From Paramagnetospirillum magnetotacticum MS-1 (lineage in GTDB: Bacteria; Pseudomonadota; Alphaproteobacteria; Rhodospirillales; Magnetospirillaceae), in the NCBI RefSeq assembly GCF_000829825.1, contig NZ_JXSL01000030.1:627501-691500 (forward strand): a stretch of 64,000 nt of DNA. The letters run 5' to 3'. Below, piece after piece: positions 1 through 15,797 of this stretch (within the stretch, counting starts at the first letter, position 1; every line of letters begins with the position of its first letter). A program made the position numbers and the translations under genes. The notes below the pieces were generated by a model, which was given only the letters and a program-made list of their open reading frames with translations, did no database searches and was not told the origin of the DNA.

Positions 1-3000
1 CCCGGCCCGAGACCACCCGGTCGCCGATGCGTCCCACCAGCGGCACCTCGGCCTTGGATCCGGGACCGAACAGCCCGGCCAGCCCCGGATGGTCGAGAAT
101 GTCCGAGACTTCATTGGCGATGGCCAGTTGCTCGGCGGTCTCCAGCCCCCAGGCCGGGCGGCCCAGGAAGCGCAGCATGGCGCGCGAGCGTTCGGGCCCC
201 GGCAGTTCGGGGACGGTCTGCAACAGCCGGTGAATGAGCTTGCCCCGCTGCCAGCGCGGCTTGCCGTCGGCCTCGGCGAGTGGCGAACGCACGGTGGGCT
301 CGTCGCCTTCGGGCCGCGACGGCGCCAGCGGCCGGGGCGGCACCGGCTCGGGCTCGGCCGAAAGTGAAGCCCAGTCGGGCAGAGCGGCGGCGGGCCTTTC
401 GCCCGGCCCGGCGGCGGAACCCGTCTCGGCGGGCGCGGTCTGGGCATTGGCCAGGACCAGAACCGGCGCTTCGGCGGTCTCCCCCGCTTGGACCAGGAAG
501 GGGTCGTCGAATTCCGCGGCGGTGGCGGCCAGGGCGCCTTGGACCAGGGCGTGCCAGCAAGTCTCGGGCGCCGCCTTCAGGCCCCGCCAGCCGCACAGGA
601 TCAGCCGGTCCTCGGCCCGCGTCATGGCCACATAGAGCAGGCGGCGATATTCCCTTTCCCGCGACAGCTTGCGCGCCTCCGCGCCCCGGCGGCAGACCGC
701 GTCCATATCCTCGGCGCGCGGCGGCCAGGCGGGCAGCTCCTCCTCGCCCTCGCCCAGCCATAACAGCCGGGGCGAGCGGGTCGGCACCTGCATGGTGTCG
801 GGCAGGAAGACGATGGGTGCCTGCAGGCCCTTGGACCCGTGCACGGTCATGATGCGCACCGCGTCACGCCCCCCTTGCTCCAGGTCGCGCTTGATCTCCA
901 GCGCACCGGCCTCCAGCCAGTGGAGGAAGCCTTGCAGCGAAGGCGGATGGGCGCGTTCGAAGGCCAGCGTCAGCGACATGAACTCGTCGATGGCATCCTC
1001 GGCCTCCAACCCCAGCCTGGCCAGCAGGTTCCGCCGCCCGCCCAGCGGCCCCAGCACCCGCGCGTAAAGCGTATGGGGCGAGACATGGTCGGCCTGGGCC
1101 AGCAACTGAGAAAGCTGGCGAAAGGCCATCTCGAAAACGCCGCCCTCATGGGCGACGCCCCGGCGCAAGGCCTCCCACAGCCCCACATCCTCGCCGCGAT
1201 GATGGGCCAGGGTGAACAGCTGCTCCTCGGTGAGCCCCACCAGCGGCCCTTTCAGCACGGTGGCCAGCGTCAGGTCGTCTTCGGGCAGCAGCAGAAAATT
1301 GCCCAGCGCCATCAGATCCATGACCGCCATCTGCTCGGTCAGCACCATGCGGTCGGCGCCCGCCACCTCCACCTTGCGGCTTTTCAGTTCGCGCACCAGA
1401 TCCTCGACGAAGCCGCCCCGGCGGCGCACCAGGACCAGCACGTCACCGGCCCGCACCGGGCGGGCCTTGGACTCCAGCATCTCGCCGTCGATCATGGCGC
1501 GGATGCGCGACGCCACCAGCCGGGCCAGCCGGGTGCGGGGCGAATCGCCTCTGATGCGCTCCACCGGCGGCTTCCAGGCGGGCGGCTCGTCGGTGGGACG
1601 GGGTTCGACGGCTGGCCACACCTCCACCCTTCCGGCCTGACCGCCGCGATGGGGCAGATGGGTGATGTCCTCATCACCCGCCACCCCGTCGCGCCCCGGC
1701 TGACCGGGGGCGAAGACGGCATTGACCGCGTCCAGCACCGATGGCGCCGAGCGGAAGGACAGATTGAGGTCCACCACATCCCACTTGCCGCCCGCGGCGG
1801 GCACATGGGCGGCGAAGGCCTGGCGCATGCGCTCGAATTCGCGCGGATCGGCGCGCTGGAATGAATAGATGGACTGCTTGGCGTCGCCCACGGCGAAGAC
1901 GGTGCGCAAGCTTTCGCGCGCGCCGCGTCCGGCGAAGAATTCCTCGGTCAGTTTCTCGACCACCGCCCATTGATCGGGATTGGTGTCCTGTGCCTCGTCG
2001 ATGAGGACATGGTCGATGCCGCCATCCAGCTTGTACAGCACCCAGGGCGCCACGCCGGGCTGGGCCAGCAGGTCACGGGCGCCGAGGATCAGGTCGTCGT
2101 AATCCATCAGGGCGCGGATGGACTTGGCGCGGCGATAGGACTGCAACAGGGCACCGCCGAGCGTCAGCAGCGCCTGGGTGGCTTCGAGGATGCGGGCGGC
2201 CTTGAGCTTTTCCGTCAGCCTCAGCAGGCGCTCGGCCTCTGCCGCCAGGACTGGTTCCGCCGTGGGCAGGGCCTTGTACACGGCCTTGGTGGCCAGGGTC
2301 TTGCGGATGGTGCCCTTGTCGGTGATGAACACCGCGCACCACTCCTCGAACAGATCGGCCCGCCGCTCGGGTTCAGCCAGGAACCGCGCCATGTCGGCCG
2401 CGCGCTTGGCATCGCTGTCGCTGCCGCCCAGCATGGCCTCGACGGCGGCGCGCAAGGCCGGGGCATCGAAATGGGCCTCGTCCACCGCCCAGGCCAGCAG
2501 GGAGACGGGCGAATCTCCCGCCTCCAGACCCAGCCGGGCGCGCAGCGCCGACAAGGCCCCCTCCACCCCGCCATGGCGGTCCAAAAGCCGCTCCAACCGC
2601 CCACGTTCGGCGGTCAGTTCGCCCATCAGATCGGGAAAGGCGGTCTCGTGCACGCGGGCCGTCACCAGGGCCAGGGCGCGCCCCAAGGCACCGTCGCCCA
2701 TGCGGGCGTGGGACAGAACCTCCAGCTTGGCGGATTCCAGCAATTCGCCCGCATCGCGGTCATCCATCACCTGGAAATGGGGCGCGATGCCCGCTTCCAG
2801 GGGAAAACGCCGCAGCAGCGACTGGCAGAAGGCGTGGATGGTCTCCATATGCATGCCGCCGGGCGCATCCAGCAGGCTGGCGAACAGACGCCGCGCTCCG
2901 ATCATCTCGCCCACGGCGGGCGGACGGCCCAGCAGGCGTTCGAGATCACCGGCCAGATCCTGATCCCGCGCCGTGGCCCATTGGCCCAGCCGCCCGGCGA

Positions 3001-3217
3001 TGCGATTGGACATCTCGGCGGCGGCGGCCTTGGTGAAGGTCAGGCAGAGAATCTTGTGGGGCGGCGTCCCGGCCAGCAGCAGGGTCAGCACCCGGTCGGT
3101 CAGCACCTTGGTCTTGCCGGTCCCGGCGCTGGCCGCCACCCAGACGCTGGCCGTGGGGTCGGCGGCGCGGCGCTGCCGCCGATCGGCGTCCTGGGAGAGC
3201 GCCGAGACTTCCGTCAT
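1..3217 (-). CDS. addA: Double-strand break repair helicase-nuclease subunit AddA (partial, 3' end outside window)
   Basis: AddA is the helicase and nuclease subunit of AddAB, which resects double-strand breaks for RecA-mediated repair in the cytoplasm. The minus-strand frame from ATG 3217 is open to the window edge. It begins MTEVSALSQDADRRQRRAA, followed by Walker A (AASAGTGKTKVL). A UvrD-type motif II, DHVLIDEAQDTNPDQW, lies near 1975-2010, then VGDAKQSIYSFQRADP, the motif V region VRIMTVHGSKGLQAPIVFLP and motif VI YVAMTRAEDRL near 600-640. The C-terminal RecB-like nuclease should lie largely beyond position 1. The start overlaps the end of moxR by four bases (ATGA), so the two are probably translationally coupled. 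The addB partner is not adjacent; it lies at 16930-19857, which is unusual because the pair is normally contiguous. The family call is secure; only completeness is unknown. Confidence 0.95.
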   Translation of the reverse strand, partial: MTEVSALSQDADRRQRRAADPTASVWVAASAGTGKTKVLTDRVLTLLLAGTPPHKILCLTFTKAAAAEMSNRIAGRLGQWATARDQDLAGDLERLLGRPPAVGEMIGARRLFASLLDAPGGMHMETIHAFCQSLLRRFPLEAGIAPHFQVMDDRDAGELLESAKLEVLSHARMGDGALGRALALVTARVHETAFPDLMGELTAERGRLERLLDRHGGVEGALSALRARLGLEAGDSPVSLLAWAVDEAHFDAPALRAAVEAMLGGSDSDAKRAADMARFLAEPERRADLFEEWCAVFITDKGTIRKTLATKAVYKALPTAEPVLAAEAERLLRLTEKLKAARILEATQALLTLGGALLQSYRRAKSIRALMDYDDLILGARDLLAQPGVAPWVLYKLDGGIDHVLIDEAQDTNPDQWAVVEKLTEEFFAGRGARESLRTVFAVGDAKQSIYSFQRADPREFERMRQAFAAHVPAAGGKWDVVDLNLSFRSAPSVLDAVNAVFAPGQPGRDGVAGDEDITHLPHRGGQAGRVEVWPAVEPRPTDEPPAWKPPVERIRGDSPRTRLARLVASRIRAMIDGEMLESKARPVRAGDVLVLVRRRGGFVEDLVRELKSRKVEVAGADRMVLTEQMAVMDLMALGNFLLLPEDDLTLATVLKGPLVGLTEEQLFTLAHHRGEDVGLWEALRRGVAHEGGVFEMAFRQLSQLLAQADHVSPHTLYARVLGPLGGRRNLLARLGLEAEDAIDEFMSLTLAFERAHPPSLQGFLHWLEAGALEIKRDLEQGGRDAVRIMTVHGSKGLQAPIVFLPDTMQVPTRSPRLLWLGEGEEELPAWPPRAEDMDAVCRRGAEARKLSREREYRRLLYVAMTRAEDRLILCGWRGLKAAPETCWHALVQGALAATAAEFDDPFLVQAGETAEAPVLVLANAQTAPAETGSAAGPGERPAAALPDWASLSAEPEPVPPRPLAPSRPEGDEPTVRSPLAEADGKPRWQRGKLIHRLLQTVPELPGPERSRAMLRFLGRPAWGLETAEQLAIANEVSDILDHPGLAGLFGPGSKAEVPLVGRIGDRVVSGR

Positions 3218-4206
3218 AGGGTGCCTTCCAGGGCCTCGATCACCTGAGCCAGGGTGATGCCGTCGGCGCGGGCGGCAAAGCCCAGCGCCATGCGGTGGCG
3301 CAGCACCGGGGCGGCCAGGGCGCGGATGTCATCCACCGAAGGCGACAGGCGGCCTTGCAACAAGGCACGGGCCCGGGTCGCCAGCATCAGCGCCTGGGCG
3401 GCGCGCGGCCCCGGCCCCCAGGCCACTGCCCGGCGGACCAGATCCAGCGACGTGCTTTCCGGGCGGCCCTGCCGCACCAGGGTGAGGATGGCATCGACCA
3501 CCGCGTCTCCCACCGGAATGCGCCGCACCAGGGCCTGGGCGGCCAGCAGGTCGTCGGCCCCCATGACCCGGACCGGCTCGGCCGCCAGGGCGCCGGTTGT
3601 GTCGATCAGCATGCGGCGTTCGGCGTCGAAATCGGGATAGCCCACGTCGATTTGCATGAGAAAGCGGTCCAGCTGGGCCTCGGGCAGAGGATAGGTGCCC
3701 TCCTGCTCCAGCGGATTCTGGGTGGCCAGGACGTGGAAGGGCCGGGGCAGGTCCTGACGGCTGCCCGCCACGCTGACGTGATGCTCCTGCATGGCCTGCA
3801 GCAAGGCCGACTGGGTGCGAGGGCCCGCGCGGTTGATCTCGTCGGCCATCAGCAACTGGCAAAAAACCGGCCCCTTGATGAAGCGGAAGGCGCGGCCGCC
3901 GCCAGCGCTTTCCTCCAGCACTTCCGAGCCCAGGATGTCGGCGGGCATCAGATCGGGGGTGAACTGCACCCGCTTGTCATCCAGGCCGAGAACGATGCCC
4001 AGCGTGTGCACCAGCCGGGTCTTGGCCAGGCCGGGCAGGCCGATCAACAGGGCGTGACCCCCCGCCAGCAGCGTGATAAGACTCTGATCGATGACTTGGT
4101 CCTGCCCGAAGATGACGCGGCCGATGGCGGCGCGGGCCTCGCCCAGACGGGATTCGAGGCTGCTGATCTCGTCCTGCGGGGCGGCGGAACTGGGGTGCGG
4201 TGTCAT
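3214..4206 (-). CDS. MoxR-family AAA+ ATPase
   Basis: A 330-residue MoxR-type AAA+ ATPase, a chaperone-like family that often works with VWA-domain proteins. Visible motifs are Walker A GLPGLAKTRLV, the Walker B and following helix LLMADEINRAGPRTQSALLQ, and sensor 1 in VLATQNPLEQEGTYPLPEAQ. The C-terminal lid domain follows. ATG 4206 is the only sensible start because the family core begins soon after (ISSLESRLGEARAAIGRVIFGQ). MoxR genes are usually followed by DUF58 and other VWA genes. Here the stop codon instead overlaps the addA start, so this ATPase is probably co-expressed with a DNA repair helicase. The divergent DUF1285 gene starts only 45 bp away. The family is certain and the substrate unknown. 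Confidence 0.93.
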   Translation of the reverse strand: MTPHPSSAAPQDEISSLESRLGEARAAIGRVIFGQDQVIDQSLITLLAGGHALLIGLPGLAKTRLVHTLGIVLGLDDKRVQFTPDLMPADILGSEVLEESAGGGRAFRFIKGPVFCQLLMADEINRAGPRTQSALLQAMQEHHVSVAGSRQDLPRPFHVLATQNPLEQEGTYPLPEAQLDRFLMQIDVGYPDFDAERRMLIDTTGALAAEPVRVMGADDLLAAQALVRRIPVGDAVVDAILTLVRQGRPESTSLDLVRRAVAWGPGPRAAQALMLATRARALLQGRLSPSVDDIRALAAPVLRHRMALGFAARADGITLAQVIEALEGTL

Positions 4207-8989: not shown

Positions 8990-9586
8990 ATGAGCCACCA
9001 GATGTACGGCCATGCGGGTCAGGATTCCTTCACCCGCGGCATCGCCCGCCTCGTCTTCCTGAGCCGCTGGCTTCAGGCCCCGCTCTATATGGGCCTGATC
9101 GTGGCCCAGACCTATTACGTCTACCGGTTCTTCCTCGAGATCGCCGAAATCTTCCATCACCCTGCCATGGATGAAAGCGCCGCCGTGCTGCTGGTCCTGG
9201 GGCTGATCGACGTGGTCATGATCTCCAACCTGCTGATCATGGTGATCATCGGTGGCTATGAAACCTTTGTCTCGCGGTTGCGCGTGGAAGGCCATCCGGA
9301 CTGTCCTGAATGGCTGAGCCATGTGAATGCCAATACCATGAAGACCAAATTGGCCATGGCCCTGATCGGCATCTCGTCGATCCACCTGCTGAAGACCTTC
9401 GTTAATGCCGAGCATCACATGCAGGAAAATGTGGTCATGTGGCAGTGCATCATCCACACCCTGTTCATCGTCTCGGCGGTCATGCTGGGCTTTTTGAACA
9501 AGATGATGGAATCGGCGCCCCACGCTCCCCATGCCAGCCATGGACATGCTTCGGGACACGCGCAGCACCAGCCCGCCGCCGAATAG
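8990..9586 (+). CDS. UPF0114 (YqhA-like) inner membrane protein
   Basis: A 198-residue inner membrane protein of the UPF0114 / YqhA family. Four hydrophobic helices are visible at about residues 27-47, 66-88, 123-140 and 148-166. Diagnostic text includes LSRWLQAPLYMGLIVAQTYY, VVMISNLLIMVIIGGYETFV and TMKTKLAMALIGISSIHLL. The tail after residue 170 is His-rich (APHAPHASHGHASGHAQHQ), suggesting a cytosolic metal-binding tail, though this is inference. An AGGAGTTGAG ribosome site precedes ATG 8990. Distant relationships to ion channels have been suggested for this family, but no function is established. It lies 37 bases before another membrane protein gene, and the ion-channel fusion follows on the same strand. 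Confidence 0.88.
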   Translation: MSHQMYGHAGQDSFTRGIARLVFLSRWLQAPLYMGLIVAQTYYVYRFFLEIAEIFHHPAMDESAAVLLVLGLIDVVMISNLLIMVIIGGYETFVSRLRVEGHPDCPEWLSHVNANTMKTKLAMALIGISSIHLLKTFVNAEHHMQENVVMWQCIIHTLFIVSAVMLGFLNKMMESAPHAPHASHGHASGHAQHQPAAE

Positions 9587-9623
9587 GCTGAGGGCTCATT
9601 TCAAGGGTAGGGGGGACGCAGCA

Positions 9624-10493
9624 ATGAACGGATTTTTCCGGGGCTGGAATATCGCCAAGGCAAGCCTGGGCGTTCTGCGTGCCCAACCCAAGCTGATGGT
9701 CCTGCCCATCTGCTCCGGCATCGCCATGCTTGCCATCATCGCCCTGACCGTGCCGCTGCTGGCGGTCTTTACCGACCAGTCCGAGGCGGAGAACGTCAAT
9801 GACACCATCGTCTATCTGACGTTTTTTGGCGCCTATATCGCCTGCTACTTCGCCATGCTGTTCTTCAACGCGGCCCTGATCTTTTGCGCGATCCGCTATT
9901 TCGAGACCGGGGCCACAACCCTGGGCGAGGGGCTGGCCGCAGCCGGACGCCGGGCGCTTCCCATCCTGATCTGGGCCCTTATCGCCGGGACCATCGGCCT
10001 GATCCTGCGGGTCATCGGCGAGACCCTGACCCGGCTGGCCCGCAAGGAATTCGGCGCCGTCGTCGCCTTCGTGGTCAAGCTGCTGACCGCCGGTCTTTAC
10101 GGTCTTTGGCTGGCAGCCAGTTATTTCACCCTTCCCGTTCTCGTGGTCGAGGGGGTGGGCCCCATCAACGCCGTGCGGCGCTCCACCCAGTTGATCAAAG
10201 CCCATTGGGGCGATGTCCTGGGCGGGCAATCCATGCTCGGCCTGCTGACGTTTCTGGCCATCTTGTTGCCCGGCGTGGCCGTCGGTGGCGTCGTCTATCT
10301 CCTCCAGGACGCGGCGCAAGCCTATCTGGGGGTTCTGATCGGCGTGGGAATCGCCTATATCGGCATCGTGATGCTGGTGTCCTCGGTCCTGGGAATGATT
10401 TTCCTGGCCGGGGTCTATCTGTTCACCTCCACGGGCAAGGCCCCCGAGGCGTTCGGTGACGATCTGGTGCGGGCCGCTCTCAAGACGGCCTAG
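9624..10493 (+). CDS. DUF6159-like multi-pass membrane protein
   Basis: A 289-residue integral membrane protein with about six hydrophobic segments. These include VLPICSGIAMLAIIALTVPL, YLTFFGAYIACYFAMLFFNA, ILIWALIAGTIGLILRVIG and a long final pair. Its shape and motifs (AIRYFETGATTLGEGLAAAG, LPVLVVEGVGPINAVRRST) fit DUF6159-type proteins of unknown function. ATG 9624 is chosen because AGGGGGG precedes it; upstream in-frame codons lie inside the UPF0114 gene. It ends 37 bases before the start of the ion-channel fusion, so the three membrane genes could be one operon. The function is unknown. Confidence 0.75.
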   Translation: MNGFFRGWNIAKASLGVLRAQPKLMVLPICSGIAMLAIIALTVPLLAVFTDQSEAENVNDTIVYLTFFGAYIACYFAMLFFNAALIFCAIRYFETGATTLGEGLAAAGRRALPILIWALIAGTIGLILRVIGETLTRLARKEFGAVVAFVVKLLTAGLYGLWLAASYFTLPVLVVEGVGPINAVRRSTQLIKAHWGDVLGGQSMLGLLTFLAILLPGVAVGGVVYLLQDAAQAYLGVLIGVGIAYIGIVMLVSSVLGMIFLAGVYLFTSTGKAPEAFGDDLVRAALKTA

Positions 10494-10530
10494 GCATCGC
10501 GGCACCGCGGAAAATTTTGGAGAACATAGT

Positions 10531-12768
10531 ATGCGTCGTTTCTCGAGTGTCCTTCTCGCGCTCCTGATGGTTCTGCTGTCCGGTGGGGCTTATGCGAAGA
10601 CCTACAAGATCGGCGTGCTGGTCCCCCTGACCGGTCCTTCGGCGGAAAAGGGCATCCCCCTCAAGAATGCCGCCGAACTCTTCGTCGAGCAGTTCAACGC
10701 CGCCCCCGAATCCGAGGGCAACCGTCTCGAACTGGTGGTGCGCGACGATTTCGACGATCCCGACAAGGCGCGCGCCGCCGCGGCCGAGATGGTGAAGGAC
10801 GAATCCCTGCTGGCCGTGGTCGGGCACTATTATCCCGGCGTGGCACTGGCCACCGGCAAGATCTTCGCCGATGCCAAGATCCCCTTCCTGTCTCCCAATG
10901 TCAGCAGCCCGGCCGCTTTCGCCGACAACAAATGGGCTTTCACCCTGAACATGCCCGACAGCGTCCAGGGCGCGTTCCTGGCGGTCTACATCAAGGAAGT
11001 CCTGAAGAAGGACAATATCCTGGTGATCTACAACACCGATCCCTTCGGCTCCTCGTTGCGCGACGCCTTCGTCGCCAAGGCCGAGCGTCTGGGTCTCAAG
11101 GTGCTGAAGACCCTGCCGGTGGAGGTCGGGCCGGTGGCCAAGGATTGGGCCGCCACCAATCTGCCCGATGCCACCGAGAACCAGAATTTCGGTATCATCG
11201 CCACCCTGACCCACTCAGAATCCGGTCTGTCCTTCCTGCCCCAGCTGCGCGATGCCGGGATCAAGGCACCGGTCATGGCGCCCAACACCTGGTCGAATCC
11301 GAAATTCCTCACCGAACTGGACGAGAAATATACGGCCAACGTCTATCTCGCCTCGGCCTTCCTGTGGGAAATCGCCAACCAGAAGGCCTCGGCCTTCGCC
11401 AATGCCTATACCAAGCGTTTTGGGGCGCGGCCCTCGGTGGCCGCCGCCATGTCCTTCGATGCCGTCAATCTGATCGCCAAGGCCATCGGGGCGGCGGAAA
11501 AGGGCGCCCCCACACGGGCTTCCATCCGCGACTATGTGGCGGGCATCGAATGGCATGGCTTCGTCGAAGGGGTGACCGGCAATCTGTTCTACAAGAACGG
11601 CCGGGACATGACCGCCGAATATGTGGGCAAGTATCTCCAGGCCAAAGGCGAGACCGCGCCGCCGCCCGCGACGGGAAGCGCCGTTGTCCAGGCCTCCTAC
11701 CGCGACGTCTATGTCTCGGTGATGAAGGACGGCCGCTTCAAGACCGCCCCGGTCCAGCTCCTGATCCCGCACGAGGAATACGTGCTGAAGGAAATGGGTG
11801 AACGCATCGCCAAGGGTCAGGTGACCCTGGTGGACGGCACGCCCTATCACATCGTCGACGTGATCTCGGTCGGTGTGGACGTGATCCGCATCAACGATGT
11901 CAGCATCAAGGACATGCAGTGGGACGTGGACGTCTTCATGTGGTTCAAATGGTCGGGTGGCCGTCTCGACGTCAAGGATATCGAGAAGATCTCCGCCATC
12001 AACGCGGTCAAGGAAACCTCGGCGATCTTCAAGGAGGATCTGACCCACGGCACCAAATACCGCGCCTACCGCAAGCGCCTGACCCTGACCGCGCCTTATG
12101 ATCTGTCGAACTTCCCGTTCGATTCCCAGACCCTGCCGCTGGAGATCGCCCACACCAACAAGAACTCCACCCATGTGATGCTGGTGCCCGACACCCGCCA
12201 TATGGAGACGGTGCCGGTCAAGGACATCAAGCCGCAGGAATGGACCTATACGGGGCGCAGCGTCTTCTCGGATCTCTACCGCTACGATTCCACCTTCGGC
12301 GATCCCGATTACCGCATGGGCACCGGCTATAAGAGCCCGGTCTATTTCTCCACGGTCAATCTGGAGATCGGCATCAAGAGAATCCTGAAGCCCTATCTCT
12401 TCACCTTCTTCCTGCCGCTGCTGATCATCCTGGGCATCATCCTCATCATCTTGTGGGTGCCGCTGGACCAGTTCGCGCCGCGCATCAATGCCACCATCTC
12501 CGGCCTGATCGGTGTGCTGGTCTATCACATGTCCCAGAAGAACTCGTTTCCCAAGGTCGGCTATACCATGAGCGCCGACTACTACTTCCTGGTGGCCTAC
12601 GCCTTCGTGGTGTCGATGATCTTCAACATCATCTTCATCCAGACCCTGCAATCGGCGGGTCAGAAGGACGTCGCCAAACTCTGGAACAAGCGCCTCAGCA
12701 TCGGCGCCATGATCGCCGCTATCGTCATCTACGCGGCCATGACCATCTTCGCCATGAGCGTGGCCTAA
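10531..12768 (+). CDS. Periplasmic binding domain fused to a pentameric ligand-gated ion channel (Cys-loop family, no Cys)
   Basis: A 745-residue predicted neurotransmitter-receptor-like channel. Residues 1-22 are a signal peptide. Residues 24-385 or so form a LivJ-type type I periplasmic binding domain (KTYKIGVLVPLTGPSAEKGI, then VGHYYPGVALATGKIFADA). After a Pro-rich linker near 375-382 and a transitional stretch, a beta-rich extracellular domain starts near 430. It contains the hallmark pro-loop NFPFDSQTLPLEI (Phe528-Pro-Phe-Asp531) without flanking cysteines, as in prokaryotic members. Four membrane helices follow: M1 about 623-643, pore-lining M2 about 651-672, M3 about 684-706 and M4 about 722-744. 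The M2-M3 loop SFPKVGYT resembles that of GLIC. GGAG lies before ATG 10531; an earlier in-frame codon falls inside the upstream gene. The architecture is certain; ligand and ion selectivity are unknown. A ligand bound by the LivJ-like domain, perhaps an amino acid, may gate the pore. Confidence 0.9.
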   Translation: MRRFSSVLLALLMVLLSGGAYAKTYKIGVLVPLTGPSAEKGIPLKNAAELFVEQFNAAPESEGNRLELVVRDDFDDPDKARAAAAEMVKDESLLAVVGHYYPGVALATGKIFADAKIPFLSPNVSSPAAFADNKWAFTLNMPDSVQGAFLAVYIKEVLKKDNILVIYNTDPFGSSLRDAFVAKAERLGLKVLKTLPVEVGPVAKDWAATNLPDATENQNFGIIATLTHSESGLSFLPQLRDAGIKAPVMAPNTWSNPKFLTELDEKYTANVYLASAFLWEIANQKASAFANAYTKRFGARPSVAAAMSFDAVNLIAKAIGAAEKGAPTRASIRDYVAGIEWHGFVEGVTGNLFYKNGRDMTAEYVGKYLQAKGETAPPPATGSAVVQASYRDVYVSVMKDGRFKTAPVQLLIPHEEYVLKEMGERIAKGQVTLVDGTPYHIVDVISVGVDVIRINDVSIKDMQWDVDVFMWFKWSGGRLDVKDIEKISAINAVKETSAIFKEDLTHGTKYRAYRKRLTLTAPYDLSNFPFDSQTLPLEIAHTNKNSTHVMLVPDTRHMETVPVKDIKPQEWTYTGRSVFSDLYRYDSTFGDPDYRMGTGYKSPVYFSTVNLEIGIKRILKPYLFTFFLPLLIILGIILIILWVPLDQFAPRINATISGLIGVLVYHMSQKNSFPKVGYTMSADYYFLVAYAFVVSMIFNIIFIQTLQSAGQKDVAKLWNKRLSIGAMIAAIVIYAAMTIFAMSVA

Positions 12769-12814: not shown

Positions 12815-14770
12815 TCAGCCCATCACCGCAGCGGGCAGCCAGGTGGCAATACCGGGCAAGACAGAGCACAGCACCACTGCCACCATCATGATCAGCACGA
12901 AGGGGATGGTTCCCCAGATGATGTCCCTCAAGGGGATATCGGGCGCGATGTTCTTGATGACAAAGATGTTGAGCCCCACAGGCGGGTGAATCAGCCCCAT
13001 CTCCATCACGATGGTCATCACCACACCGAACCAGATCAGGTCGAACCCGGCGGCTTTCAGCGGCGGCAAAATGATGGGCGCGGTCATCAGAATGATGGAG
13101 ACGGGTGGCAGGAAAAAGCCCAGCACCACGGTAAACAGCAGAACCGCCGCCAACAGGAACCATTTCGACAGGGCAAGACCGATGATCCAATCGGCGGCGG
13201 CCTGGGAAATGTGAAGGTAGCTCATCACATAGGCATACAGCAGCGACATGCCGATGATCATCAGCAGCATGGTGGATTCGCGCAAAGTTCCGGTCAGAAT
13301 GGGCATCAAGAGCCGGGGCCGCCAGATGCCGTACATCATGCCGATGACAGCCAAGGCCAGCACGGCCCCCACTCCGGCGGTTTCCGACGGCGTGGCCCAA
13401 CCGGCATAGAGCACCACCATCACACCCGCCAGAATGGTGACGAAAGGGGCGACCCAGACCACCATGCGGATCTTTTCGCCCAAACCGTAATGCTCACCGG
13501 CCAGCAGGGCCGAATGAGTGCCATGCGCGGCCGCCGCCCGTTCCGCCAGACGGTATTCATGGCGATAGCGGAGGACGGAATAGGCGGCGAACAGGGTGAT
13601 CAGCAACAGACCGGGGCCGATTCCGGCCAGGAACAGACGGCCCAGCGACACTTCGGCGGCCACCGCGTAAAGCAGCATGGTCACCGAGGGCGGCAGCAAG
13701 ATACCCAGCGTCCCCCCGGCGGCGATGATTCCGGCGGCAAAGCCCGGCGAATAGCCTCTGGCCCGCATCTCGGGAATGCCCGCCGAGCCGATGGCCGAGC
13801 AGGTGGCGGGCGAGGACCCGGCCATGGCGGCGAACAACCCGCAGGCGATGGTGTTGGCCACCCCCAGCCCGCCAGGAATGCGGTGCAGCCAGGCATGCAG
13901 GGCAAGGTACAGATCCTTGCCCGCATTGGACCGTCCGATGGTGGCGCCCTTTAAGATGAACAGCGGAATGGCCAGGATGATGACATTGGCCAGTTCCTCG
14001 TAGAAGTTCTGGGCGATGGTATTTACCGATGCCGCAGGCAGGAACAGCAGCATGAAGATCAGCGCCACCACCCCCAGGGCGAAGGCGATGGGCATGCCCG
14101 AAAACATGGCCAGCAGGGTGACAATGCCATAGGCGATGCCGGTCACCCAATGGGGCAGGCCGGAAATCAGCGGCTTGACCGGCGGCGTCGCCAGCAGAAA
14201 GGCGGCGACCCCCAGCACCACCAGGGCCAACAGCCAGACCGAGCGCCGCCCCACCTGAAGCATCATCTGCAGGGCCAGCAGGCCCATGCCCAATGTCAGG
14301 GTCGAATAGGGAATCCACAAAGGCGGCCCCCAGGCGGATTGGGAGGTTTGGCCCTCCTCCACCGCCTCGGCCAGGAGCAGTCCCGACTTCCAGGCGAAAA
14401 TCAGGCAGAAGGCCAGGACACCTGCCTCCACCACGCCATGTCGCAAATTCTTGGCGTAGGGGAATGCGTGGTCGAGAACGTCGATGGCCACATGGCCGCG
14501 CCGGGCCTGGACGCTGGCCGCCGACAGGAAGACCGCGCCCGAGATTAGAAAGATCGTGACCTCGTCCTGCCACAACAGCCCGCGCCCGGTGAGGTGGCCC
14601 ATCACCACCCCGAAGGTCAGGACCCCGGCGGCGGCCAAGAGGGCCAGCGCCGAGAGCTTGAAGGCACCCTCCATGACCATTTCGAACAGGGCGATGGCCG
14701 GGTTGCGGATGGTCCTGACGGGTAAGGCTTCGGTGGCGAGAATGGCGTCGTGCTCGGCCCCGCCCGACAT
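12815..14770 (-). CDS. TRAP transporter fused small and large membrane subunits (DctQM)
   Basis: A 651-residue fusion of the DctQ and DctM membrane subunits of a tripartite ATP-independent periplasmic (TRAP) transporter, which uses an ion gradient to import organic acids delivered by a binding protein. The first 190 residues are a four-helix DctQ domain (GLLWQDEVTIFLISGAVFLS). The remaining part is the DctM permease with about twelve helices (GIAYGIVTLLAMFSGMPIAF, CGLFAAMAGSSPATCSAIGS, GGTLGILLPPSVTMLLYAVA). ATG 14770 starts one base after the dctP stop codon, so they form a dctP-dctQM operon. Fused QM proteins are a known subtype. The substrate cannot be read from the sequence. Confidence 0.93.
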   Translation of the reverse strand: MSGGAEHDAILATEALPVRTIRNPAIALFEMVMEGAFKLSALALLAAAGVLTFGVVMGHLTGRGLLWQDEVTIFLISGAVFLSAASVQARRGHVAIDVLDHAFPYAKNLRHGVVEAGVLAFCLIFAWKSGLLLAEAVEEGQTSQSAWGPPLWIPYSTLTLGMGLLALQMMLQVGRRSVWLLALVVLGVAAFLLATPPVKPLISGLPHWVTGIAYGIVTLLAMFSGMPIAFALGVVALIFMLLFLPAASVNTIAQNFYEELANVIILAIPLFILKGATIGRSNAGKDLYLALHAWLHRIPGGLGVANTIACGLFAAMAGSSPATCSAIGSAGIPEMRARGYSPGFAAGIIAAGGTLGILLPPSVTMLLYAVAAEVSLGRLFLAGIGPGLLLITLFAAYSVLRYRHEYRLAERAAAAHGTHSALLAGEHYGLGEKIRMVVWVAPFVTILAGVMVVLYAGWATPSETAGVGAVLALAVIGMMYGIWRPRLLMPILTGTLRESTMLLMIIGMSLLYAYVMSYLHISQAAADWIIGLALSKWFLLAAVLLFTVVLGFFLPPVSIILMTAPIILPPLKAAGFDLIWFGVVMTIVMEMGLIHPPVGLNIFVIKNIAPDIPLRDIIWGTIPFVLIMMVAVVLCSVLPGIATWLPAAVMG

Positions 14771-14771
14771 C

Positions 14772-15797
14772 TCAGGTCACATCCCGGGCCAGTTTGAGAA
14801 GTTCCGCGGCCTCGGGCGATTTGGCGGCATAGTCGGCCCAGGCGCTTTCCTCGGCAATCTTGCGCCATTGGGCCAGATGGTCATTGGTGAAATCCACCAC
14901 CTGACAGCCCTTGGCGCCATAGACGGCGGCCACCTGTTCGTCATCCTTCTTGGCCTCGGCCATGCCCCAAGCTTCCATCTCGCTGCCAACCTCCAGCAGC
15001 ACCTGCTGCTGGGCCGCCGGGAGAGTGTCGAAAACCGCCTTGGACATCAAAAGCGGCTCCAGCATGAACCAGAACGAGCCCTTGCGCGGCGCGGTCAATG
15101 ATTTGGCCAGCTCTTCCAGCCGGAACGAGATCAGGCTGGTGGACGAGGTGACGGCGGCGTCGAGCGCACTGGTCTGCATGCCGATATAGATCTCGTTGGA
15201 GGGCATGGTGGAGACCTTGGCCCCGGCGGCGGCGAACATCATGTCGGTCTCGCGCGAGCCGCCCCGGATGGTCAGCCCCTTGACATCGGCGGGTCCCAGG
15301 ACCGGCGTTCGGCGCGACGCGATGCCGCCCGCCTGCCAGACCCAGGCGATAAACTTGACGCCCTTGTCCTCCAGCAGCTTGGAAAAGGCCTTGCCGATGG
15401 GAGCGGTTTTCCAGCGCGCACCCTGCTCATAGCTGGTGACCAGACAGGGCATCAGCCCCAGATTGCAGGCATGCACCTCGCCCCCGGCATAGGGAATGGG
15501 GTACAGCGACATATCCAGCGCGCCCTTGCGCAGGGCCGAGAACTGGGCATTGGTCTTCATCAGCGAGGAATTGGCGTAGATCTCGAATTTGAGGGCGCCG
15601 TTGGTGCGCTTTTCCACCTCGCGGGCGAATAGGCGGCACAGGCGGTCGCGGAAATCGCCCTGCTCGATGGTGCCTCCGGGGAACTGATGCGAGATTTTCA
15701 AGGTGGTGGTCGATTGCGCCCAGCCCTTGCGGCCGAACGACAAAAGGGCAGGCGCACCCGCAAGCCCAGCGAGCGCCTGACGGCGGCTGATCTTCAT
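14772..15797 (-). CDS. TRAP transporter substrate-binding protein (DctP family)
   Basis: A 341-residue periplasmic solute-binding protein for the downstream DctQM permease. The N-terminus MKISRRQALAGLAGAPALL is a twin-arginine-type signal, so it may be exported folded. Family motifs include LKISHQFPGGTIEQGDFRD, GGEVHACNLGLMPCLVTSY and the ligand-contact block GPADVKGLTIRGGSRETDMM, with the conserved Arg that usually binds a substrate carboxylate. MQTSALDAAVTSSTSLISF is the equivalent of the conserved G-x-V/L-D-G block. It is divergent from the orphan response regulator at 16123, which could regulate it, but nothing in the sequence proves this. Confidence 0.92.
   Translation of the reverse strand: MKISRRQALAGLAGAPALLSFGRKGWAQSTTTLKISHQFPGGTIEQGDFRDRLCRLFAREVEKRTNGALKFEIYANSSLMKTNAQFSALRKGALDMSLYPIPYAGGEVHACNLGLMPCLVTSYEQGARWKTAPIGKAFSKLLEDKGVKFIAWVWQAGGIASRRTPVLGPADVKGLTIRGGSRETDMMFAAAGAKVSTMPSNEIYIGMQTSALDAAVTSSTSLISFRLEELAKSLTAPRKGSFWFMLEPLLMSKAVFDTLPAAQQQVLLEVGSEMEAWGMAEAKKDDEQVAAVYGAKGCQVVDFTNDHLAQWRKIAEESAWADYAAKSPEAAELLKLARDVT

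Follow-up and report, generated by a model that had tools for sequence, protein, structure and literature searches.

The window, by which we mean the whole stretch of 64,000 nucleotides analysed here, carries one intact gene whose product joins a type I periplasmic binding protein (PBP) to a pentameric ligand-gated ion channel (pLGIC), and the fusion is genuine. Relatives of this protein place the same PBP and the same Cys-loop-type extracellular domain (ECD) on a pore of the YnaI/MscS kind. We hypothesize, and consider it quite probable, that PBP and ECD form one movable sensor module, which would have arisen once on a pentameric Cys-loop channel and moved once onto a YnaI/MscS pore, where its coupling residues would have decayed and its fold stayed. 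The parts of the gene and its convergent neighbours are listed here, with domain boundaries that we set from Pfam, alignments and models.

10531..12768, forward strand: whole gene, 745 codons and a stop, encoding PBP, Cys-loop ECD and four membrane helices
10519..10522, forward strand: GGAG, a likely ribosome-binding site, with 8 bases between it and the ATG at 10531
10531..10596, forward strand: signal peptide, residues 1-22, assigned by eye (basic start, hydrophobic core, AYA then K)
10597..11766, forward strand: type I PBP, residues 23-412, from Peripla_BP_6 and fold search
11767..11820, forward strand: linking helix between PBP and ECD, residues 413-430, a helix in both models at low confidence
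11821..12381, forward strand: Cys-loop-receptor-type ECD, residues 431-617, from profile A7 and invariant residues
12112..12129, forward strand: pro-loop FPFDSQ, residues 528-533, without cysteines, read in the sequence; the loop spans 527-539
12382..12459, forward strand: M1, about residues 618-643 (model helix 615-641; hydropathy in L048)
12466..12549, forward strand: M2, pore-lining, about residues 646-673 (model helix 645-672; R651 taken as 0')
12568..12654, forward strand: M3, about residues 680-708 (model helix 680-708; hydropathy in L048)
12664..12759, forward strand: M4, about residues 712-743 (model helix 712-743; hydropathy in L048)
12815..14770, reverse strand: fused DctQ-DctM subunit of a TRAP transporter, convergent neighbour (Pfam DctM 4e-84, DctQ 3.3e-20)
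14772..15797, reverse strand: DctP, binding protein of the same TRAP transporter (Pfam DctP 6.7e-44)

The frame runs from the ATG at 10531 to the TAA at 12766-12768, 745 residues without an internal stop; the alternative upstream start, a GTG at 10456, would only lengthen the N-terminus. The signal peptide, MRRFSSVLLALLMVLLSGGAYA followed by KT, leads into PBP, linking helix, ECD and the four helices (618-745). The first-pass annotation had proposed such a single chain, with signal peptide, type I PBP, Cys-loop ECD, pro-loop and four helices, and the intact frame, Pfam, the profile and the helix model bear it out. Its suggestion to look for the same domain order across genomes was also rewarding: the fusion is kept in nine homologues from eight other records at 56-90% identity, the one in L006 ending at the contig end before M4. 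Near-full-length relatives in seven records come from Rhodospirillaceae (two), Paramagnetospirillum kuznetsovii, Magnetococcales, Burkholderiales, Azonexus and Gallionellaceae; the P. kuznetsovii homologue, apparently in the window's own genus, is 83% identical to the window protein. Of the 55 genomes of the window's family, 54 have a match to the query, for the most part limited to the PBP among those listed, and five (window's included) hold a full-length stop-free protein at 74-100% identity.

That a frameshift or an assembly error joined two genes, which the first-pass annotation had named as the case against itself, is hardly credible. Nothing was found in favour of this artefact, and it is ruled out by stop-free, near-full-length homologues in five genomes of the same family (window's included) and in seven other records, three of the five apparently being three of the seven to judge by equal BLAST values; the nine homologues themselves lie in eight separate records. 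Values of dN/dS between the window gene and these nine, obtained with a purpose-written Nei-Gojobori procedure, are 0.12-0.26 for the PBP and 0.08-0.20 for ECD plus membrane part, those from the 10 of 18 comparisons with dS > 1 being rough. Judged by these ratios, the fusion is under purifying selection, which, together with its retention in the homologues, argues against an assembly error. Identity is higher in the ECD (66-95%) than in the PBP (49-87%) in all nine homologues, and lower in the signal peptide (27-60%); the linking helix is 56-100% and M2 78-100% identical.

The arrangement is not new. Tasneem et al. (PMC549065), in the passages concerned, reported in 2004/5 N-terminal PBP-I fusions in Magnetospirillum magnetotacticum and Bradyrhizobium (B. 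japonicum) and compared them with NMDA receptors. By their description, the PBP-I fusion ART-LGICs reported there have the same order as the window protein (signal peptide, PBP-I, LBD, four helices). In its relevant part, PMC4795631 left terminal domains aside, such associations then being known at genome level only. The kind of fusion is thus already known and the window protein is a further member: a well-conserved addition to a class of sensor-fused receptor channels noticed two decades ago. No functional study of a PBP-pLGIC was found in the open-licence literature.

The channel part falls below the Pfam cut-offs (Neur_chan_LBD 22.5 vs 26 bits; Neur_chan_memb 19.2 vs 28.1), and NCBIfam LGIC_1 gives E 3.3e-15, yet only 56.3 bits vs a cut-off of 500. 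Profile A7, made from 24 related ECD+membrane regions (327 positions), matches 249 distinct PDB sequences at E ≤ 0.001. The best is a GLIC/GABA-A chimera, matched across both domains (E 3.7e-26, positions 26-319 of 327), and a further match among the GLIC/GABA-A/GlyR chains follows at 3.8e-26 over positions 26-323 of 327. Since the match runs over both domains, channel homology is settled despite the low Pfam and NCBIfam scores: on profile evidence, the ECD and four-helix part is a homologue of pLGICs (Cys-loop or pro-loop receptors). P529, D531, Q533 and R617 are identical in 29 of 29 related proteins, P529 being the pro-loop proline that PMC4795631, in the part concerned, gives as the one absolutely conserved pLGIC residue. 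The disulphide of animal members is missing, the protein having no cysteine at all; it does not define the wider family, because the bacterial members treated in passages of PMC549065 lack it too. In both structure predictions (monomers, nine rows each, the second without the PBP), the ECD has pLDDT below 50, and the membrane-helix model has block values of 41-78. In the 770-residue form from L048, a plain hydropathy scan found M1, M3 and M4 and missed the more polar M2.

For M2, the family profile stands in gap-free register with the M2 of GABA-A and GlyR in the chimeras. We take R651 as 0'. In the ten sequences of the window clade, position 649 is A or T and P650, R651 and K670 are constant, which leaves no acidic residue at -2' or -1' (A/T-P-R) and puts a lysine at 19'. 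In GLIC and ELIC an acidic residue stands close to the inner mouth of M2; the window protein has none there. By the acidic-residue rule quoted in part of PMC549065, the window pattern falls on the anion-channel side, and our guess is that this M2 is closer to those of anion channels than to that of GLIC. Not all PBP-pLGICs share the pattern: L028 has E at -1', some others D or E at -2'.

Peripla_BP_6 covers residues 24-351 with 172.7 bits (cut-off 31.7; 2.3e-50), and the PBP model, up to about residue 341, has ten-residue blocks of pLDDT 57-92 with one exception at 42. Branched-chain amino-acid binding proteins take the top Foldseek ranks for this model (3hut 3.4e-21; 4gnr, LivJ, 1.5e-18; 4q6b, with Leu, 4.2e-18), and the two-lobed PBP-I fold is present, with a TM-score of 0.76 by target length for 4q6b. 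In LivJ, the residues that hold the alpha-amino and carboxyl groups are presumably S79, T102 and E226; position 79 was counted in the alignment, and 102 and 226 were placed by eye. At the pocket positions of the LivJ/Atu2422 alignment the window protein has P102, V124, S125 and N252. Against Atu2422 (3ip5), counted in the printed alignment, Y100 lies at F77 and P102 at S79; N252, placed by eye, lies at LivJ E226. Within alignment A1 (ten sequences), Y100, W254, W279 and E280 are invariant, and position 102 is P in eight and T in two. The trio S102, T125 and E252 occurs together in 15 of the 29 PBP-pLGICs of alignment A6. From these alignments, LivJ-like anchors appear to be present in another PBP-pLGIC clade and absent from the window's.

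The amino-acid-like ligand expected by the first-pass annotation is accordingly unsupported for the window clade, where those anchors appear to be missing; such a ligand may still bind, because the leucine-bound 4q6b (Desulfitobacterium; sequence equal to 4mlc) has an Asn-Ser-Trp stretch at the corresponding place. What the pocket residues suggest is that the ligand is probably not a plain alpha-amino acid held in the LivJ way. The LivJ-like and the re-tooled PBP pockets offer a matched pair for ligand screens.

Twenty-two of 23 fetched ECD-bearing proteins longer than 900 aa have the same PBP and ECD on an MscS/YnaI-type pore. These hybrids (L032, L033, L034, L035, L036, L077-L091, L095, L096) are about 930-1160 aa long. 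Pfam finds Peripla_BP_6 and MS_channel_2nd in all 22, ANF_receptor in 18 and a cyclic-nucleotide domain in two, and no family that would be the ECD. In L078, LivJ-type proteins match at 36-272 and YnaI at 684-916 (5.9e-17), and none of 52 PDB matches has its best stretch on residues 440-635, the ECD. YnaI/MscS is thus the pore part of the hybrids only: the matched YnaI chains are without PBP or Cys-loop ECD, and the window gene, unlike the hybrids, has no MscS part. The places fetched numbered 25, of which 22 gave frames longer than 900 aa and three (L092, L093, L094) gave PBP-pLGICs. The 22 hybrids comprise 17 of 19 frames longer than 900 aa from the search with profile A3 (G601:C233 and G567:C110 being the two left out) and five from the family search. 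Found through their PBP or their ECD, they owe the joint presence of both partly to selection and are not a random sample.

The hybrid ECD is of the Cys-loop type without the PFD pro-loop. Profile A3, built without any MscS protein, detects hybrid ECDs in six-frame searches at up to E 2.2e-22; profile A5, made of MscS proteins only, finds the window ECD at 1.6e-15 (positions 3-197 of 226), as well as frames as short as a PBP-less channel (371-406 aa), with E between 3e-8 and 2e-6. At the level of profiles, the match between the pLGIC and MscS sets is therefore reciprocal, and their ECD profiles align over 194 columns in hhalign, with an E-value for one pair only. The MscS LBD profile alone found no pLGIC in the PDB, giving five matches at E 10 (best 0.55, agrin); what ties this domain to Cys-loop ECDs is the A3, A5 and hhalign comparisons. 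The hybrids look new: no report of a PBP-ECD-MscS protein, or of such a pore exchange, was found in the open-licence literature. As a separate observation, three genomes of the window's family have a large frame immediately upstream of the PBP-ECD-MscS gene (L032:4529-7474, L033:4551-7448, L036:3112-6966); these frames carry LamG plus cadherin/Ig-like domains, seen with Pfam for L032 and L033 and by eye for L036. The 23rd fetched ECD-bearing frame, L029 (2850-7238, reverse strand), has a pLGIC and not an MscS pore; its 1462 aa begin with an MFS transporter (weak HAMP match), followed by PBP and pLGIC, and a signal-peptide-like stretch in mid-frame may indicate that two genes are read here as one.

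When 24 pLGIC and 22 MscS ECDs are aligned together, residues common to both sets stand apart from residues particular to one. D554 and W571 are present in 24/24 pLGICs and 22/22 MscS proteins, P592 in 22/24 and 21/22, and G590 in 10/24 and 22/22. The residues expected to couple the ECD to the pore behave otherwise: P529 is found in 24/24 pLGICs vs 7/22 MscS proteins, D531 in 24/24 vs 0/22, Q533 in 24/24 vs 4/22, and the pre-M1 arginine R617 in 24/24 vs 2/22, this last loss being unsure because seven MscS rows have lysine and eight a gap, and the alignment is less certain at the end of the MscS ECD. As aligned, the coupling residues are invariant on Cys-loop pores and appear mostly lost on MscS pores. 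Such a pattern fits an ECD that would still transmit, only to another partner. YnaI/MscS pores are heptameric in solved structures; if the module is real, the hybrids would be ligand-gated MscS channels in which a Cys-loop ECD works outside a pentamer. Nature would have made the swap itself, with the same PBP and ECD on both pores and the coupling residues kept on one and mostly lost on the other.

The history of the swap was read from trees. Among 70 ECDs placed in one tree, the 56 that follow a PBP (32 pLGIC, 22 MscS and two divergent pLGIC) are divided from the 14 without one by a branch supported at 100/99, and the 22 MscS ECDs form one clade (100/98); where this clade joins one pLGIC (L051), support is only 88/34. 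The ECD tree was rooted at the midpoint, so its root is not an inferred one. For the 63-row tree, 0% of 200 bootstrap trees unite the PBP-pLGICs in a single group, and an AU test of that grouping gives p 0.0524, not quite a rejection. The PBP tree sets ten stand-alone binding proteins apart (99/97) and needs three changes for pLGIC and two for MscS, with long branches meeting (L051-L082, L028-L044); the PBP history is less clean than that of the ECD. From the branching order, the MscS hybrids probably derive from PBP-pLGICs, and the swap likely went from a Cys-loop pore to an MscS pore. Read most simply, PBP and ECD were fused once on a Cys-loop pore, and the pair later passed once to an MscS pore. 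The first trees left out L038, L092 and L093, and L029 was in none of their inputs; the 70-ECD tree added these four and also L030, L046 and L076. L045 (long), L069 (a fragment) and L052 were dropped after the earliest of the first trees, L048, L070, L073 and L074 as duplicates, and L043 and L060 are in no ECD tree. L038:430-2385 (forward strand), a 651-aa pLGIC with a long N-terminal part without a Pfam domain, groups with the PBP-less channels.

As for distribution, the channel part as a single query at E 0.001 matched 9 of 385 genomes of the class, and profile A3 at 1e-5 matched 47 of 398 genomes of the phylum, the window's included in both; A3 also picks up PBP-less channels and hybrids. 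Pfam PF02931 gave no match in the window's genome, which does not show absence since 14 control genomes gave none either. No viral contig was found with the family. A second, divergent PBP-pLGIC is encoded in a genome of the window's genus (L028:6339-8534, forward strand).

How would such a protein work? With moderate confidence, we propose that the product is a subunit of a PBP-gated pLGIC in the inner membrane. The periplasmic PBP would bind a small solute and close, its movement would pass through the linking helix to the ECD, and the ECD would act through pro-loop and pre-M1 arginine on the M2 helices, opening the pore. Pentameric assembly, gating by the PBP, the direction of the response and the ion selectivity are what we infer, and it is only the coupling residues that suggest a pore driven by the ECD. 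The ECD would be chiefly an adaptor that transmits between sensor and pore, because all 22 MscS relatives have PBP and ECD and keep D554, W571 and G590, while the membrane-facing residues are mostly lost.

A ligand could, however, still bind the ECD at the classical agonist site. In that case, the PBP would only concentrate the ligand or modulate the channel, and the agonist would bind where two ECDs meet, as it does in ELIC and in animal receptors, a reading that we find rather unlikely. It agrees with a proposal in passages of PMC549065, according to which fused PBP, Cache and MCP-N domains sense first and the ligand then binds the LBD, and with the influence of the extra N-terminal domain of DeCLIC on gating kinetics reported in part of PMC9897478; the better conservation of the ECD in all nine homologues is also in its favour. 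Against it, PBP and ECD stay paired on both kinds of pore, with the split of 56 PBP-following from 14 PBP-less ECDs. Loop A of the window protein lacks the W-x-P motif. We considered this as proof of a dead ECD site and dropped it: 13 of 16 PBP-less frames scanned, some of them fragments, also lack the motif, so its absence does not separate gating by the PBP from an agonist site on the ECD. The relatives make the question testable, i.e., how far a Cys-loop ECD is a ligand site and how far a lever between sensor and pore.

We give a slight chance to a third possibility, in which the protein is a subunit of a heteromer or a non-conducting regulatory subunit. Gene pairs of the expected kind exist elsewhere: a PBP-pLGIC and a PBP-less pLGIC whose longest frames overlap by 23 bases (L049:306-1511 and 1489-3816, reverse strand), and tandem PBP-pLGIC genes in a Gallionellaceae record (L007:8001-10292 and 10252-12561, forward strand). 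The window genome, on the other hand, yields one match to profile A3 at 1e-5, the window gene, and we take the pore-facing residues of its M2 to look like those of conducting channels, which we count against a non-conducting role. The L007 proteins, also candidates for a heteromer, are 58% and 56% identical to the window protein; their longest frames overlap, though the start of the second may lie further on. The L049 pair, in which the PBP-less gene follows the PBP-pLGIC gene, is a candidate heteromeric bacterial receptor.

Known channels share parts of this design with the proposed PBP-gated subunit. GLIC, named proton-gated, matches the family profile across the four helices and almost all of the ECD and has no PBP; ELIC, which matches window residues 522-725, has none either and is opened by primary amines according to part of PMC3119659. 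DeCLIC is likewise a prokaryotic pLGIC with an extra N-terminal domain and no PBP: in passages of PMC9897478, its N-terminal lobes are jelly rolls and it is activated by calcium depletion, and PMC12664993, in the part concerned, also treats DeCLIC, whose extra domain is of another kind. The first-pass annotation had likened the protein to ionotropic glutamate receptors. The likeness holds for the N-terminal type I PBP on a ligand-gated channel and stops there: the second domain and pore of the window protein match Cys-loop receptors. Ionotropic glutamate receptors have a pore of the potassium-channel kind. Their second domain, as stated in part of PMC549065, is a type II PBP that the pore interrupts.

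The gene neighbourhood is the same as the window's only in L031 among the nine loci, and only there does a TRAP transporter lie beside the homologue. The flanking sequence fetched for L001-L007 shows none; it varies in length, and in L004, L005 and L006 it extends little past the gene. Near the divergent paralogue of L028, a TRAP transporter lies 1.7 kb upstream, its DctM part 71% identical to that of the window neighbour. The TRAP transporter is probably not part of the system, and these two loci give a weak hint of it as a partner. Upstream of the channel gene, the window holds UPF0114 and DUF6159 genes (8990-9586 and 9531-10493, forward strand), the second ending 37 bases before it; among the nine loci, these two genes lie beside the homologue only in L031.
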